Counted from the first letter of the stretch, positions 26,350 through 34,096 are shown. The stretch: 36,517 bases of DNA from Candidatus Bathyarchaeota archaeon (GCA_003661975.1 QMXE01000004.1:1-36517), one strand, 5' to 3'. Notes: generated from the sequence alone by a model not told the origin. Program-made: numbers and translations.

Positions 26350-29300
26350 TTATCTATTCTCTTTAAGGATCTCATCTAAGAGGGAATGAACATCCATCAT
26401 ATCGACTTTTCCATTTCCATCAAGATCAGCGCTTATAACAGACTTTTCGATTCCCTCAGCGATCCTTAAAACTCTGACTAGATCGGCCACTGTTAATTGG
26501 CCGTCCCTATCTATGTCCCCGGCTCTGCATGCGGAGGCTCCGGATTTAATTGCTCCTCTCTGGATTATCCACCACCTCCTAATGTCTGAAACGTCTACTT
26601 TATAGACCTTTAATTTGCCGGTTGGAGATGCTTTAACTCCCTCTCCCATCCTCAAGTTGAGCTCCGTCCCGTTAGATTGGACAGTAACGTTCCCCTCGAT
26701 TGTTACCAGATTTGTGAATTTTCCATCTGTGACATTGAGAAGGAATTGGCTGTGCGGAACCACCACTACATTGCCAGCCTTTATCGTGTATCCGCCGCCA
26801 ACTCCCGGTATACAATTGACATGCACCTCTCCATTCAGAACTCTGACCCATCTACGCTCAAATCTTACTCTCCCAAGAGATCCCCTCAGAGTCATAGAGG
26901 CGCCTACTCTGCCATCATGTGAGTATATGACAATCTTGACTGGAAAGCCCAAGGAGGTTACTCCGCTACCGTCAACAGCCGTCAAGAAGATCAGATCGCC
27001 AGCAGTCAAGTAGTATGATGTGTAGCCATCATATACTCTTGCGGTTGGAGATATGATTTCCGGCGCGAGGTTATAAATTAGGATAGGCTTTCCCATTACT
27101 GTAGATCCGCTCATCTTAAATGGCCGTATTCTGAGGCTGTTTGGCATATTATATTTTGTTGGGCTCATGTAGTAAAGCGCTAATTCCCACATGTCCGTTT
27201 TCTCGTGCAGGTATTTTGCTAATGCGACGTATATGACCTCATCTACTATAAGCGGGTATCTGCCAATAACCATCCTGGCTGAGTGCACGGAACCCCAAAA
27301 TATCTTGTATGCTCTAACGGCTCTCTCCGCGTCTGGATGGTATCTTGGGTCTTCATCGTTCCAGTAGAGCACGGCTAGGAGGAGACCTGCAACCCTGCCC
27401 TCAACGGTATTGCCAGTGAATCCTAGGGGCAGATTATGGAATCCATAGAAGTTGGAGCTCGTATAGAATTTGGGCTTTTCTGGAAGAGGCGTTGTGATGT
27501 TTATGTATGGCTGGCACTTCAGATAATCTATGAGTAGAGTTCTTAGGAATTCCGTGTGTCCCTCGTCGAAGGCTCCGAATGCGCTCCAACTCCATATTGG
27601 TATCGCCTTATTCAATATCGGAATGAATAATGCTGGGAATGGCTTATCTATCGCGTGGGATTTCCCGTATAGAAATGAATTTATCAGCCACTGTTTTGGA
27701 TTGAATAGTCCGCCAGTATCCGTGAAGCATTGTAATCTTATGTAATGTCCGGTCTCCTCAAAGAAGTCTCCAAATGTATCGCTTGTGCTGAATCCCATTC
27801 TCGTGTATTCAAGACTGAACATGTTGGATGGATATGGTAGATAAATAAGGTCTCCTTGGGTTACGATGAATTGAGGCTGTGAATGGCCATATTCTATCTT
27901 GAAGTCGTGTATTAGCTTCTCGGCTTCTCCGACTCCGGCTTCACTCAAGAATTTTATTAGGGTCTTTCTTATGAGTTCCTCCCAGACGGCGTATGGTCGA
28001 ATTCTAATCTTGAAGCCGGAGGAGACATCAGCTGGAGAGTTCTTGAGGTATGGTGATACTAAACTCCAATCACTCTTTTCTGTTTTGATTATGCAGTTCG
28101 CCGTGTATATTACGTAGATTTTTATTCCTTCCTTTGAGGCTTCAACCTCATATTTTATTCTCGCATCCTTGAATGCCTCCCTCGCCTTAAAGTAGGACTG
28201 AAGACTTGGGGGATAATTTCCAGTTATGATGAGGAAGTATGTTCCAGTGATGACTCTGCCATTCTTATCCCGAAAGATCAGATGCTCCATTTCCAAAGGG
28301 TTCTTCTTAAGTTTCCTTTGCAAGCTTCCATGCTTGACTGTGATCTCAAATGATGATATGCTGGCTGTTCCAGTCGAGAGCGGAGCGGCCTCCACACTTA
28401 AATCGTCATTTATCTTCGTCTCAACCTCTACAATCACTTGTCCACTAACAGTTACATACGGGATTATAGTTATGCGATCTGCGCTCTTCGCTCCCGCATC
28501 ATCCACGACTGTAAGCTCCACAGTATAGGTCTTGCCTGCCTCAACCTCAAAGCTCACCGCCGTAACGTTTTCTTCCTCTTTGATCTCCTCTCCATCCTCA
28601 TAGATTATCCACTTATACTTGACTATTCTTCCATCAGGATCCTTCGAGGCGCTGGTTACAGTTACGATCTCACCTGGCCTCGGCTTCTCAGGTGAGACCT
28701 TTATCTTAGCCTCCGGGGGGATATTCCTCACTTGAGAGAGTATTCGCTTGATCTCCTTGCTCACATCTACCATTACCTTCTTCTTGCAGACGGCCTTATC
28801 GAAGAATGCATCCCAAATGTAGAATGTGAAGTTGAGAGTGCTCAGTCTTCTCAAGTCCTCCTTGCTCCTGAAGCGCAGAATGCACCATTGGTCTCTAAAC
28901 ATGAATCTGCCGCTTGTCTCATTCACTTGCCTCTTTAACGGGGTGAATCTTGGGGTGAATCCATTTTTTATCTCTCCGGAGAACAGAATCTCATCTACTG
29001 TCTTTTCAGTTGCATTTTCGTCTAGTATCTTCTTCACTTCGAAACACATGTGATCTTCTTCTCCTCCTCCGGAAACATCGATTCTGAAGAATGCGGGATC
29101 ACGAAAGTCCCACTCTTTCTCTTTAAGAAGCGCCCTCCTTACAGTTATGTTTCCATCAGCCGATACGAAAACAAACAGCCAGTACGGCTTCTCATTTTCC
29201 TCTCTAAACTCAAAATGCAACCGGTAGGCGAAGTTGTTAATTTTAAAGTTGCCTCCCCGGACGAGTATGAAGGGCGGCTCATATCGAAATGGAACTTCAA

Positions 29301-30813
29301 ACTCCCCGCTCCTCGCAATCACGGCTATTGCCCGCTTAGGCAGAGTCTCCCTAGGCCCAATCGGATATGGAACGATCCATCTTGGCTCCTGCAGCTCCAA
29401 CCATGTGTAAAATATCAGTTTCCTTACACGGTTTAGCCAAGCGATCTCCTCGAGAACCAATCCTGTCCTCGCCGATTTTTCACCTTGAATTACCCCACGT
29501 ATAACCCTAAAGCGAAGTTTTGGAAACTCATCTCGGACAATCTCTTTCTTCTCAACGCCTTTCCACCTGCCCTCCGGAATAGTCAGATACGGAATAAAAG
29601 CATACCACGTTCTGCCTCGATACCCATATGGCGTACTCTCAGCCTCTTCGCAGAAGCCTCCTTGACAGAAGCCCGGGGAGAGAGCACGCACTCTCATATT
29701 GAACTTGCTTCTGATCTCATCGATGCATGATGTATACCTGCCCGCCTTAACGCAGGGGAAATAAAGCCTGTAATCTTCCCCCAACTCGTGGAGTATCATC
29801 TCGCGTAGTTCAACCTCGGCGGTTACGCTCCACTTATAATCGAAGTATACATTATCTTTGGATGTAACGGAGAATTTTGCATTCCTAATTGAGATTTTCC
29901 CACTAATGAGGTTGATCTTCCCCTTAAACTCATCAGTGACATTAACGAATGTAACTGGGATGATGAGAGAATCCAGAAGAACCTTCCTATATGACTTTGA
30001 GATGTAAGCTCCCCTCTCCTCATCATAACTGAAGAAGTAAATGTATTTGATGAGGCTCACGTTAATCTTATACTCGCCGGGTTTCTTCTTCGCACAGACG
30101 TATGCTTGGCGTTCCCATTTATCCTCTTTGCACCAAGATGAAAGAAGCGTCTTATTCTCATCCACAAACTTAACCGTTAATAGAGAGTTTCGGGCAGCCG
30201 AGTTCAGCTCTCCCTTAATATTCAATCTTTTTCTCTCTACGAGTATGACTGGCAGAAGCTTGTCAAGGGATGTAAGGCTCCCATAGAATAGGGTCATCTC
30301 CCTCAGGCTCAGAGACTTTGGATCGCAGGTTATTCGGCCTAAAGGCTCCCCACCATCCGTCGTAATTGGAACTTCCTTTGTGAGCACAACTCTTCCGGAG
30401 GAATCCTTAACCCTCAAGATCACGTTAAATGTCCCGGATATCCCGTCGGGGACATCAAAGTGGATATGTCTCGGCTTACTGCATTCTCCCCTAATCGTGA
30501 ATCTCGTAGTATCCGCCATGAATTCATCGACGGGATGCCACACATCCATCTCGATGATCAGTTTTGGAAGGACAACTTCAACAGTATACGTCTCGCCTTC
30601 GGGGCATTTCCAAGCGACCGATATAAATGTGGTTTCCGGTGAGTGCGGAGATGCTGATGGTATGCTCTTTGGGCTGATTGAGATTATAGGGGCTTTCGAG
30701 GATTCTACTTTTAAAGGCGAAATGGAGAATTGAGGGCTGACAAGGCAGATAAGAAGTAGAAATGTAAGGGCTCTTCCGTGAATCCTCTTTACCATAATCC
30801 CATTTCTTAACAT
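26350..30813 (-). CDS. Large secreted protein with PKD-like domain, degenerate zincin-like region, FecR-like stretch and C-terminal type I dockerin
   Basis: Signal peptide 'VKRIHGRALTFLLLICLVSP'; PKD-like 'PPEAKIKVSPEKPRPGEIVTVTSASKDPDGRIVKYKWIIYEDG...YTVELTVVDDAGAKS'; 'FFEETGHYIRLQ...DEGHTEFLRTLL'; C-terminal dockerin repeats. Met at 30795 is a possible alternative start. Confidence 0.85.
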   Translation of the reverse strand: MLRNGIMVKRIHGRALTFLLLICLVSPQFSISPLKVESSKAPIISISPKSIPSASPHSPETTFISVAWKCPEGETYTVEVVLPKLIIEMDVWHPVDEFMADTTRFTIRGECSKPRHIHFDVPDGISGTFNVILRVKDSSGRVVLTKEVPITTDGGEPLGRITCDPKSLSLREMTLFYGSLTSLDKLLPVILVERKRLNIKGELNSAARNSLLTVKFVDENKTLLSSWCKEDKWERQAYVCAKKKPGEYKINVSLIKYIYFFSYDEERGAYISKSYRKVLLDSLIIPVTFVNVTDEFKGKINLISGKISIRNAKFSVTSKDNVYFDYKWSVTAEVELREMILHELGEDYRLYFPCVKAGRYTSCIDEIRSKFNMRVRALSPGFCQGGFCEEAESTPYGYRGRTWYAFIPYLTIPEGRWKGVEKKEIVRDEFPKLRFRVIRGVIQGEKSARTGLVLEEIAWLNRVRKLIFYTWLELQEPRWIVPYPIGPRETLPKRAIAVIARSGEFEVPFRYEPPFILVRGGNFKINNFAYRLHFEFREENEKPYWLFVFVSADGNITVRRALLKEKEWDFRDPAFFRIDVSGGGEEDHMCFEVKKILDENATEKTVDEILFSGEIKNGFTPRFTPLKRQVNETSGRFMFRDQWCILRFRSKEDLRRLSTLNFTFYIWDAFFDKAVCKKKVMVDVSKEIKRILSQVRNIPPEAKIKVSPEKPRPGEIVTVTSASKDPDGRIVKYKWIIYEDGEEIKEEENVTAVSFEVEAGKTYTVELTVVDDAGAKSADRITIIPYVTVSGQVIVEVETKINDDLSVEAAPLSTGTASISSFEITVKHGSLQRKLKKNPLEMEHLIFRDKNGRVITGTYFLIITGNYPPSLQSYFKAREAFKDARIKYEVEASKEGIKIYVIYTANCIIKTEKSDWSLVSPYLKNSPADVSSGFKIRIRPYAVWEELIRKTLIKFLSEAGVGEAEKLIHDFKIEYGHSQPQFIVTQGDLIYLPYPSNMFSLEYTRMGFSTSDTFGDFFEETGHYIRLQCFTDTGGLFNPKQWLINSFLYGKSHAIDKPFPALFIPILNKAIPIWSWSAFGAFDEGHTEFLRTLLIDYLKCQPYINITTPLPEKPKFYTSSNFYGFHNLPLGFTGNTVEGRVAGLLLAVLYWNDEDPRYHPDAERAVRAYKIFWGSVHSARMVIGRYPLIVDEVIYVALAKYLHEKTDMWELALYYMSPTKYNMPNSLRIRPFKMSGSTVMGKPILIYNLAPEIISPTARVYDGYTSYYLTAGDLIFLTAVDGSGVTSLGFPVKIVIYSHDGRVGASMTLRGSLGRVRFERRWVRVLNGEVHVNCIPGVGGGYTIKAGNVVVVPHSQFLLNVTDGKFTNLVTIEGNVTVQSNGTELNLRMGEGVKASPTGKLKVYKVDVSDIRRWWIIQRGAIKSGASACRAGDIDRDGQLTVADLVRVLRIAEGIEKSVISADLDGNGKVDMMDVHSLLDEILKENR
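26353..26523 (-). other. Type I dockerin domain within the 1487-aa protein
   Basis: Two Ca-binding F-hand-like loops: 'GDIDRDGQLTVADLVRVLRIAEG' and 'ADLDGNGKVDMMDVHSLLDEIL'. Confidence 0.88.
28455..28720 (-). other. PKD-like domain within the 1487-aa protein
   Basis: 'SKDPDGRIVKYKWIIYEDGEEIKEEENVTAVSFEVEAGKTYTVELTVVDDAGAKSADRITI' pattern; coordinates approximate. Confidence 0.75.
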
Positions 30814-30948
30814 TATCTCTCACGTAGATTCCATTACTACATTTCAAGATTTTGACCTTTCAGCATTTTATAACTTTCTGAGAGACCAGTAGAAAACTTA
30901 TAACTTCATTCCTTGAGATTAATATTAAGGTGATGGGCTGAACTAATA

Positions 30949-32349
30949 ATGCATAGTAAATATTCGCGTCTACTACTGCTGCTTATACCGTTAGTTTTAA
31001 TTGTGCCTGCGAATCCCTATATCTCCGCTGCATCCCCAGCTCATAAGATTTATATTGGCTCTAAGACCTTGAAGGTCGGCTCTGAGGCTACCATGGAAAT
31101 AAGGATTTTGGGAGCCGAGGATGTCGCTGGAGCACTCATAGAAGTCACCTATAATAGTTCGATATTGAAGGTCGTGAGTGTTGAGCAGGGCGACTTTCAA
31201 GTATTCGGTTCAAATCATAGCAGGCCGGGATCACTTAGAATCGTAGGCGCAAGCGCCGAGGCCCTAGGTAAGTCTGAGGCGTTAATGGCGAAAGTTACGT
31301 TCAGAGGCATCTCCAGTGGGGCTTCAGCATTAAAGATCGTGAGGGCTGAGCTATGCTATGAGAATGGAACTTTCATCCGTGACATTGAATTTAAGGATGG
31401 AGCGGTTAAGGTTTTAGATTACATTTGGATCGTAGATATCGAGCCTAAGAGCGGAACTGAGCTGATAACGGAGAAGACATATACGTTTAAGCTCACCGTG
31501 AATTATTCATTTACGTCTGCGGATTATGGATATATAGGTTTGGTCGCCAAGATCAACGATCTAAAGAATCCAAGCATAGCACATAAGAAGATCCCGATCT
31601 ATGGTTATAAAATCGCGGATGTAAAGGATCTCACCTTAAATGTTGACATTCCAAGCGACGCGGAAAAACTATACGTCGCTGTTCGGCTTCTAAAGGGCAA
31701 CGAGACATCCACGGAGATATATGATGTGGTCGAGTATCAGGTTAAGAAGAGTGGATGCTTAATAGCGACGGCCACCTTCGGCTCCGAGCTCTCCCCAGAA
31801 GTCAACTTCCTAAGATCCTTCAGGGATCAGGAGGTTCTCTCAACATATGCCGGAAGATGCTTCATGGAAGTATTCAATAACTTCTATTATTCTTGGAGCC
31901 CCAACGTTGCTGTCTTCATAAGAAAGAATGCGATCGTCAAGACGGCCTTCAAGATTCTCTTATATCCGCTGATAATGATCCTTCACTTATCATCATTCAC
32001 ATACCGTTGCCTCAGCCAATTTCCAGAAGCCGCTATACTCGCAGCCGGCTACGTGGCAAGCTCCCTGATAGGATCAGTATATCTCGGATTGCCCCTATCT
32101 CAAATTAAACGTTTCAGAAGAATGGAGTGCCGCATACTGAAGGCTTGGATCTACTCAGTGCTTCTAATCCTAATTCCAATAGTCCAAGCTGAGGCTATGC
32201 ATTCCGTTCAGCTGATGATGGCGACAACAGCGATATTCGTCCTACTAAACATAGGCTTCTCCTCGATCCTAACTGGAACACTTATCGCTAAGGGAGTATC
32301 TATCCTCCCTCAAATAATCAAAAAGAAATGGACACGGAGCTATCTATAA
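30949..32349 (+). CDS. Membrane-anchored cohesin-domain protein with CFI-box-CTERM and multi-TM tail
   Basis: Signal peptide 'LLLLLIPLVLIVPANPYISA'; cohesin-like 'KIYIGSKTLKVGSEATMEIRILGAEDVAGALIEVTYNSSILKVVSVEQGDF...LMAKVTFRGISSGASALKIVRAELC'; 'CLIATATFGSELSPEVNFLRSFRDQEVLSTYAGRCFMEVF'. Confidence 0.85.
   Translation: MHSKYSRLLLLLIPLVLIVPANPYISAASPAHKIYIGSKTLKVGSEATMEIRILGAEDVAGALIEVTYNSSILKVVSVEQGDFQVFGSNHSRPGSLRIVGASAEALGKSEALMAKVTFRGISSGASALKIVRAELCYENGTFIRDIEFKDGAVKVLDYIWIVDIEPKSGTELITEKTYTFKLTVNYSFTSADYGYIGLVAKINDLKNPSIAHKKIPIYGYKIADVKDLTLNVDIPSDAEKLYVAVRLLKGNETSTEIYDVVEYQVKKSGCLIATATFGSELSPEVNFLRSFRDQEVLSTYAGRCFMEVFNNFYYSWSPNVAVFIRKNAIVKTAFKILLYPLIMILHLSSFTYRCLSQFPEAAILAAGYVASSLIGSVYLGLPLSQIKRFRRMECRILKAWIYSVLLILIPIVQAEAMHSVQLMMATTAIFVLLNIGFSSILTGTLIAKGVSILPQIIKKKWTRSYL
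31039..31422 (+). other. Cohesin domain
   Basis: Beta-sandwich pattern with 'ALIEVTYNSSILKVVSVEQGDF' and 'LMAKVTFRGISSGASALKI'; boundaries approximate. Confidence 0.8.
31756..31929 (+). other. CFI-box-CTERM surface-protein domain
   Basis: 'CLIATATFGSELSPEVNFLRSFRDQEVLSTYAGRCFMEVFNNFYYSWSPNVAVFIRKN'. Confidence 0.85.
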
Positions 32350-32481: not shown

Positions 32482-33042
32482 CTATGCCGTCTCAGCTGTT
32501 TCTACGTTGCACTCAACGTTATACTGTGCATTCTTGGTGAAGACCGTTATGCCTATCGTTACTCCTATGTCGCTGATTGATATGCCATCCGGATTCTTTA
32601 TGTAGATTATCATTGTATCTCCGGATGCTAAGGGCTTATCATTCGTGTCATTTGAGAATGAGGCGCTCCGTCCTGAAGTATACTCGAAGTCGCTCCATGT
32701 CGGATTTGCACTCGGGCAGTTAAGTGATGTTGAGATTGAACTGTTAAGCCTTGTATAGTAGACTTTAGACCATGAAACCTCAACTCCCCTCACTTGAATC
32801 TTATCTATTACCACATCTCTTCCGCCAACATTATCGATCGCCAATGCAACGTATGCTGTTCCATTATTATAGACCCAAACGGCCTGCTTTCCAACTTTTA
32901 AGGCTTCCTGCTGGGTTCTCGTAGACGATATGTTCGTGGCATACATGGTGACGACTCCGGCCAAGAGCACTGAGACGACCAGTATTATCAGCGTTGAGAC
33001 CACATTGCTTAGCGCTGTCCTATTTCTTCTTAATCTTCTCAT
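32482..33042 (-). CDS. Archaeal type IV pilin-like protein with class III signal peptide
   Basis: 'MRRLRRNRTALSNVVSTLIILVVSVLLAGVVTMYATNISSTRTQQEALKVG', then a beta-rich region with several N-x-S/T sequons. Confidence 0.85.
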   Translation of the reverse strand: MRRLRRNRTALSNVVSTLIILVVSVLLAGVVTMYATNISSTRTQQEALKVGKQAVWVYNNGTAYVALAIDNVGGRDVVIDKIQVRGVEVSWSKVYYTRLNSSISTSLNCPSANPTWSDFEYTSGRSASFSNDTNDKPLASGDTMIIYIKNPDGISISDIGVTIGITVFTKNAQYNVECNVETAETA

Positions 33043-33295
33043 TCAGCACCCTCCATGCTCGAACTCATGAGGCTCAATCAGGCGATATTAGAATTTGTGT
33101 GTCTTGAATGGAAACAGACAATTCAGACTCAGGGTTCAGACGATATCTTTGAGCGGTTGATTCATACATCAGAAGCGGTCTAACACTACGGTTTCTTGTC
33201 CCCTCTGGAGGATCTGGCATGCCCATCCAGTCTGAATCGACAATAGTCTTTAACGTTCATAAATTGAATATTTTTGTTCCATAACTCTTGAGTAA

Positions 33296-34096
33296 TTGAA
33301 GTATTTGATGGTGGAGTATATGTGCCATCTCGAGCTCATACGGATATTGCTGAGTCTCATTTTTCTTTCAGTCTCATCATGGTATGACTATAAATTCAGG
33401 GAAGTTTCGGATAGGATTTGGCTGTTATTCGCTCCAATAAGCCTCGTCTTAACATTCACGCAGTATTACCTTGAGTTCACAATCAAGGCTGACTATTCAA
33501 TCTTCCTCTTTTGGCTCCTCTCCCTTGGAGTCACAATTCCCATCTCCCTACTCCTTTTTTATCTGGGCTTCTTCGGAGGGGCAGATGCAAAGGCTCTAAT
33601 ATGCCTATCGCTCGCGATGCCAGCATATCCCAGCATATCGAATGCACAGTTCAATTCTATGCTCCCAATATTCCCATTGGCCGTTCTAGTAAATGCAGTA
33701 TTTGCAGCTTCCGCGCTCACTCTAATAATAACATGCCATAACATCTTCGAATATCTGCATGTCAGAGGAGAAATGTTCAGGGGATTTGAGCATGAACCAT
33801 GCTGGAAGAAGATGCTGGTCTTCATTACTGGAGTTAGAATTAACCCGAAGAGGCTGAAGGATTCCCATTACATACCATTGGAATATGCTGTTAAAGGAAA
33901 AAGTGGCGAAGTCACTAGGTACCTAAGGGTTTCTCCTCAGATCGAAGAGGAATGTCCAGCACATATTGAGGTTCTTAATGGGCATGTATGGGCCACGCCT
34001 GGACTGCCATTCCTCATATTCATGACCATTGGCTATGTAATTGCGCTTCTCCTCGGAGACTTCGTAGACTGGATGCTCATCCTATTATTTCCTTAG
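33296..34096 (+). CDS. Class III signal peptidase / prepilin peptidase (FlaK/PibD-like A24)
   Basis: 'SVSSWYDYKFREVSDRIW' (first Asp) and 'LGFFGGADAKALICLSLAMP' (GxGD-type second Asp), within multiple TM helices. Confidence 0.88.
   Translation: MKYLMVEYMCHLELIRILLSLIFLSVSSWYDYKFREVSDRIWLLFAPISLVLTFTQYYLEFTIKADYSIFLFWLLSLGVTIPISLLLFYLGFFGGADAKALICLSLAMPAYPSISNAQFNSMLPIFPLAVLVNAVFAASALTLIITCHNIFEYLHVRGEMFRGFEHEPCWKKMLVFITGVRINPKRLKDSHYIPLEYAVKGKSGEVTRYLRVSPQIEEECPAHIEVLNGHVWATPGLPFLIFMTIGYVIALLLGDFVDWMLILLFP

Follow-up and report, generated by a model that had tools for sequence, protein, structure and literature searches.

What might an archaeon do with a cohesin and a dockerin that are encoded by two adjacent, divergently oriented genes? 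Cohesin-dockerin pairs are high-affinity docking modules, best known from bacterial cellulosomes, and to our knowledge the function of the archaeal ones has been an open question ever since their discovery in Archaeoglobus. Non-cellulosomal cohesins and dockerins are known in ANME (PMC9012536, PMC5244752), M. maripaludis (PMC11452385) and also Archaeoglobus fulgidus, where their partners are mostly unknown and surface anchoring has been proposed. In ANME, the cohesins are found in multi-cohesin proteins and the dockerins on ABC-transporter binding proteins or S-layer proteins (PMC9012536). The locus described here lies in a stretch of 36,517 nucleotides (the window) from a Candidatus Bathyarchaeota archaeon (GCA_003661975.1, QMXE01000004.1:1-36517), whose genome (G000) is 92.9% complete, has a GC content of 45% and is congeneric with G003. 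Our reading is that the pair probably represents a non-cellulosomal surface docking system, in which a single-cohesin receptor holds peptidase-like dockerin proteins.

Table 1. Features of the divergent cohesin/dockerin gene pair, in window coordinates.
Feature	Position	Strand	Basis or remark
1487-aa secreted dockerin protein	26350..30813	-	open frame; presumed docked partner
Type I-like dockerin, two 12-residue calcium loops (residues 1431-1485)	26359..26523	-	PF00404, motif
Conserved pre-dockerin domain ending in RRWW (residues about 1289-1417)	26563..26949	-	BLASTP to fused protein
Peptidase-like core (about residues 945-1235)	27109..27981	-	co-linear with fused congener protein
DEGHTE, place of third metal ligand	27550-27567	-	within peptidase-like core
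EETGH, place of HExxH	27745-27759	-	within peptidase-like core
PKD domain (residues 699-779)	28477..28719	-	PF18911, PF22352
Shared intergenic region of divergent pair	30814..30948	.	135 bp
466-aa cohesin receptor/anchor protein	30949..32349	+	open frame
Signal peptide (residues 1-28)	30949..31032	+	hydrophobic segment 8-26, then AAS
Cohesin domain (residues about 30-157)	31036..31419	+	PF00963, AlphaFold2 model, Foldseek
Ig-like beta-sandwich linker domain (residues about 158-268)	31420..31752	+	second all-beta domain in model
CFI-box (CLIATATFGSELSPEV...), residues 270-342	31756..31974	+	NF041770
Membrane helices (361-381, 396-417, 419-446)	32029..32286	+	hydropathy scan

The two open frames and the gap between them (Table 1) are exactly as the original prediction had described. 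This gap contains two TATA-like elements (TTTATAA at 30867 and CTTATAA at 30897), motifs whose window-wide frequency is not above chance, and a search of its 135 bp for sigma-70-type promoters and terminators found none; the two genes may be regulated from it. Also near the pair, in window positions 32482-34096, are a pilin-like archaeal gene (PF07790, below cut-off) and a gene of a prepilin-peptidase family (PF06847).

The identity of the smaller protein as a cohesin rests on both sequence and structure. The Pfam scan finds PF00963 over residues 35-124 with 27.8 bits, above the cut-off of 24.1, and the cohesin sequence weakly matches the solved scaffoldin cohesins 2vn5/1g1k. In a Foldseek search of the PDB, an AlphaFold2 model of the cohesin and the Ig-like domain that follows it (pLDDT 80.6) matches cohesins best (E 9e-9), with a target TM-score of up to 0.71 to single cohesin modules, so that the domain initially described as cohesin-like has both an HMM and a structural match. 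Further downstream, the CFI-box and membrane helices that had been noted after the cohesin are borne out by NF041770, which scores 70.2 bits against an NCBIfam cut-off of 40, and by about three membrane helices in a hydropathy scan. The first two of these helices are separated by a basic loop (KRFRRMECR) and the tail of the protein is also basic, which by the positive-inside rule would place the loop and the tail inside the cell and the ectodomain outside. A further segment, 329-347, is likewise hydrophobic in the hydropathy scan, and it is better read as a candidate membrane-surface helix rather than a spanning one, because the ectodomain would be secreted with the basic loop and tail inside.

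The 1487-aa partner has an N-terminal hydrophobic signal segment and, in the same hydropathy scan, no further hydrophobic stretch long enough to span a membrane. Its PKD domain scores above cut-off with two families (PF18911, 33.7 bits; PF22352, 32.2 bits; E 4e-8). The two complete dockerin loops that were first reported at its C-terminus are both present (DIDRDGQLTVAD and DLDGNGKVDMMD, residues 1433-1444 and 1463-1474). A search with PF00404, the test suggested at the time, gives a divided result: the dockerin is above the cut-off of 22.9 bits in a six-frame genome search (25.9 bits) and below it in a plain Pfam scan (20.0 bits). This is the weakest of the domain calls, which in our view is settled by the candidate calcium-loop motif and by a paralog, because the six frames of the window contain the double motif once and 2000 residue shuffles not at all, and because PF00404 gives 31.1 bits for the homologous C-terminus of the paralog.

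What would such a dockerin bring to the cell surface? The Pfam search finds no glycoside hydrolase family in either the 1487-aa or the 466-aa protein, in line with the original prediction, which had recognised no such module and had proposed a non-cellulosomal use of the pair. That proposal is reinforced by the presence of only one cohesin in the genome and by the finding that neither of its two dockerin proteins contains a glycoside hydrolase or other polysaccharide enzyme family. The large protein has instead a peptidase-like core, which had been overlooked, with no Pfam match and no PDB sequence match, and its AlphaFold2 model, with a pLDDT of 36, is too poor to show a fold. At the HExxH position, the window protein has EETGH and its paralog EEAGH, and HEWGH is found only in a fused congener protein that is described below; both docked paralogs retain the catalytic E, the second H and the glutamate further downstream. 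Because HExxH thus reads EExxH in both paralogs, the core is probably non-catalytic or altered, and we infer that the cargo would be a pseudo-enzyme or an altered metalloenzyme.

Within the order, the two genes are found together or not at all. Of its 163 genomes, only G000 and G022 have the large dockerin protein, and only these two have the full cohesin anchor; G022 belongs to another family of the order, and its two genes are again divergent neighbours with different outer neighbours. The G022 proteins are 45% (large protein) and 51-52% (cohesin anchor) identical to those of the window; the contig ends within its large-protein gene, ahead of the dockerin position, and an extra 196-aa ORF with no Pfam match lies between the two divergent genes (L012 2960-3547). 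In the congeners G003 and G001, the flanks are the same as in the window, with an AIR synthase-like gene on one side and an archaeal pilin gene on the other. Since these flanks enclose one unrelated gene instead, encoding 408-415 aa (L095 3013-4257, L096 3069-4292), the cohesin-dockerin pair was most likely gained or lost as one unit, and this site looks exchangeable. A relative of that gene exists elsewhere in G000, and it is distant (22% identical). Four further genomes of the order gave matches to the large protein, which were set aside because they cover the PKD stretch only, and a scan of the named genomes with the large-protein alignment found no additional relative. Two relatives with names, JAGGUU010000157.1 and WAQA01000067.1, are likewise Candidatus Bathyarchaeota contigs.

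The count of sockets and plugs within the genome is equally simple. Over the whole of G000, there is one cohesin match and there are two dockerins below E 1e-4, that of the window protein and that of a 1507-aa paralog on contig C35 (L016:8224-12744), which is 56% identical over its length to the 1487-aa protein; both credible dockerins thus belong to the same paralogous protein family. A third, weak dockerin match on contig C164 (L017) was set aside, its GC content being 57% as against 45%. This contig is probably a bacterial contaminant; it carries a lumazine synthase-like gene, a lipoprotein-like dockerin protein and a bacterial-looking gene set. The paralog raises the first rival explanation, namely that the cohesin would be a general socket and would mainly bind the C35 paralog or the dockerins of other cells, the adjacency of the two genes reflecting their duplication history. 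It would explain why the dockerin of the C35 paralog has the better score (31.1 bits versus 20.0 in the window protein), and dockerin genes are indeed common across the class. Against it, the adjacent pair has been retained in another family (G022), and a comparison of the window and C35 dockerins shows 18 of 25 identical residues in repeat 1 versus 8 of 25 in repeat 2 (Fisher p 0.01), as would be expected if both dockerins used repeat 1 on the same cohesin. With a p value of only 0.01, this pattern of a conserved repeat 1 and a diverged repeat 2 is suggestive only, and fits a common partner that would be bound through repeat 1. We therefore regard a general socket as unlikely, and prefer the docking of both paralogs on the one cohesin.

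A further line of evidence for docking comes from a natural counterpart in which the same anchor is covalently attached to a similar protein. In G003 (G003:C132, L055/L011, 1-3960), a 1320-aa open frame, the 5' end of which is cut by the contig, encodes in this order Ig-like domains, a metallopeptidase-like region (HEWGHH...EEGTAD), an RRWW domain and an anchor of the same Ig-like/CFI-box/membrane type, 81-83% identical to that of the window and sharing its Ig-like domain; neither a dockerin nor a cohesin is present in this open frame. The RRWW domain of the 1487-aa protein matches that of the fused protein (BLASTP E 2e-5), and the peptidase regions are co-linear (hhalign E 0.0019, with a probability of only 14), which makes homology of the two peptidase-like cores a moderate case. 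In the window's own genome, an apparent ortholog of the fused protein is cut by the contig start (C161, L013 3-635); its remaining 211 C-terminal residues are 83% identical to the window anchor, and the gene context is that of G003. The fusion junction is visible in one assembly only. The anchor tree places the window anchor in one group with the G022 cohesin anchor and both fused anchors (support 100/99). If the group is rooted on G022, the fused form is most simply explained by an exchange of the cohesin for the cargo, a direction that is not firm. Because the G003 anchor is covalently fused to a similar protein that lacks both dockerin and cohesin, docking and covalent fusion look interchangeable, and the fused counterpart is the strongest clue to mechanism: attachment is covalent there and would be non-covalent, via dockerin and cohesin, here.

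How general is this anchor? In a search with the anchor protein, 44 of 257 class genomes have matches, mostly to the C-terminal CFI-box/membrane module, some of the weakest being to the CFI-box only or to the cohesin only. The module is present in up to six copies per genome and has a near-constant length of about 185-200 residues. It recurs as a C-terminal anchor of secreted Bathyarchaeia proteins (e.g. L060, L061, L047, L048), and the other ectodomains ahead of it include a purple acid phosphatase (L060) and an M6 peptidase (L061). Cohesin-CFI-box proteins are also found, in two forms, in family f18, and the supported branches of the anchor tree force at least two cohesin-label changes (the best tree needs four). 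From these matches and the tree, we read the CFI-box/membrane module as an anchor in general use among Bathyarchaeia, on which a cohesin was apparently acquired in at least two lineages. Two candidates were left out as cohesin anchors: G077, whose CFI-box protein bears another ectodomain, and G033, whose cohesin-like modules sit in a protein without a CFI-box anchor. In an f18 genome (L057, G206:C6, 2398-9371), three co-directional genes include, in the middle, a cohesin-CFI-box-membrane anchor unrelated to that of the window, between two genes for cohesin+dockerin proteins, one of 1198 aa with HELGH and the other secreted. This is an independent association of a cohesin-CFI-box receptor type with a peptidase-like dockerin protein, and may be a locus for a compact surface complex in a different family of Bathyarchaeia. 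Across the class, 101 of the 257 genomes have cohesins and 97 have dockerins, and the two occur together in 80 genomes (odds ratio 31, p 2e-29, relatedness ignored), so that the description of archaeal cohesins and dockerins as scattered, from which we started, is an understatement for Bathyarchaeia. Also overlooked at that stage were how widely the CFI-box anchor is distributed, its direct fusion to a similar protein and the own-genome paralog with its second dockerin.

These findings also bear on a second rival, in which the cohesin-like and dockerin-like modules would be stabilising or adhesive and would not bind each other, the genes being merely co-regulated genes for surface proteins. 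The modest domain scores would be compatible with this, as would the cohesins of A. fulgidus and M. maripaludis, for which PMC11452385 shows no partner. It sits poorly, however, with the strong class-wide co-occurrence of the two modules, with the presence in G000 of one cohesin and two dockerins of one family, with the covalent fusion that takes the place of the pair in G003 and with the statement in PMC9012536 that archaeal cohesin-dockerin binding has been measured, and we consider it distinctly improbable. That the pair are chance neighbours is scarcely credible, even with the pair in two genomes only, since a lone cohesin would lie beside one of two dockerins with a likelihood of about 0.2% (our estimate, assuming about 1800 genes), and the arrangement is retained, among other neighbouring genes, in a second family, with congeners lacking both genes at the same site.

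The preferred reading, a surface docking system, can be set out as a sequence of steps. After export, the 466-aa protein would stay anchored in the cytoplasmic membrane via the CFI-box and three helices at its C-terminus, with its one cohesin displayed on the Ig-like spacer. The 1487-aa protein and its C35 paralog would be secreted, and their C-terminal dockerins, presumably in a calcium-dependent manner, would bind the cohesin of the 466-aa protein, which would keep both of them at the cell surface. The cargo would be a multidomain protein with a peptidase-like core, which may serve as a binding or inhibitory surface protein. The original proposal of a single-cohesin receptor that anchors the large protein is thus supported by the HMM and structural evidence for the cohesin and by the neighbourhood in G022, from which we infer binding. 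A bolder extension, put forward tentatively, is that one cohesin receptor serves several paralogous cargos and that fusion and docking are interchangeable on a general CFI-box anchor for the same peptidase-like cargo.

By analogy, the window pair would work like the anchoring step of a cellulosome, yet it is not a cellulosome, because there is no scaffoldin and no carbohydrate-active cargo. Bacterial anchoring scaffoldins likewise have a membrane- or wall-held extracellular cohesin, and bacterial type I dockerin enzymes are likewise secreted with a C-terminal two-loop dockerin. The window pair differs in that it has one cohesin, in that no carbohydrate-binding or glycoside hydrolase module was found in it, in that its anchor is of the CFI-box type instead of an SLH or sortase signal, and in that its cargo is peptidase-like. 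The systems of A. fulgidus, ANME and M. maripaludis represent the same non-cellulolytic archaeal use; unlike in ANME, the CFI-box anchor here bears only one cohesin, and it has a defined partner encoded next to it as well as a fused counterpart. The C-terminal domain is shared with other CFI-box-CTERM proteins (NF041770), whereas most CFI-box/membrane proteins of the class carry other ectodomains directly and the window anchor carries a cohesin. In the literature searched, which mostly excluded subscription journals, no paper was found on the CFI-box or on Bathyarchaeia cohesin/dockerin pairs; as far as this searchable literature shows, the combination of a single-cohesin CFI-box anchor, a defined travelling partner and a covalent counterpart is new.

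In conclusion, the locus is a small, self-contained example, with a single cohesin, two dockerins from one protein family, a defined membrane anchor, a pair that travels together and a natural fused counterpart. Both the pairing and the topology are testable, and the example hints that the CFI-box, an undescribed domain, is part of a membrane anchor. If the extended proposal were true, Bathyarchaeia would have a minimal and exchangeable surface display system built on the CFI-box anchor.
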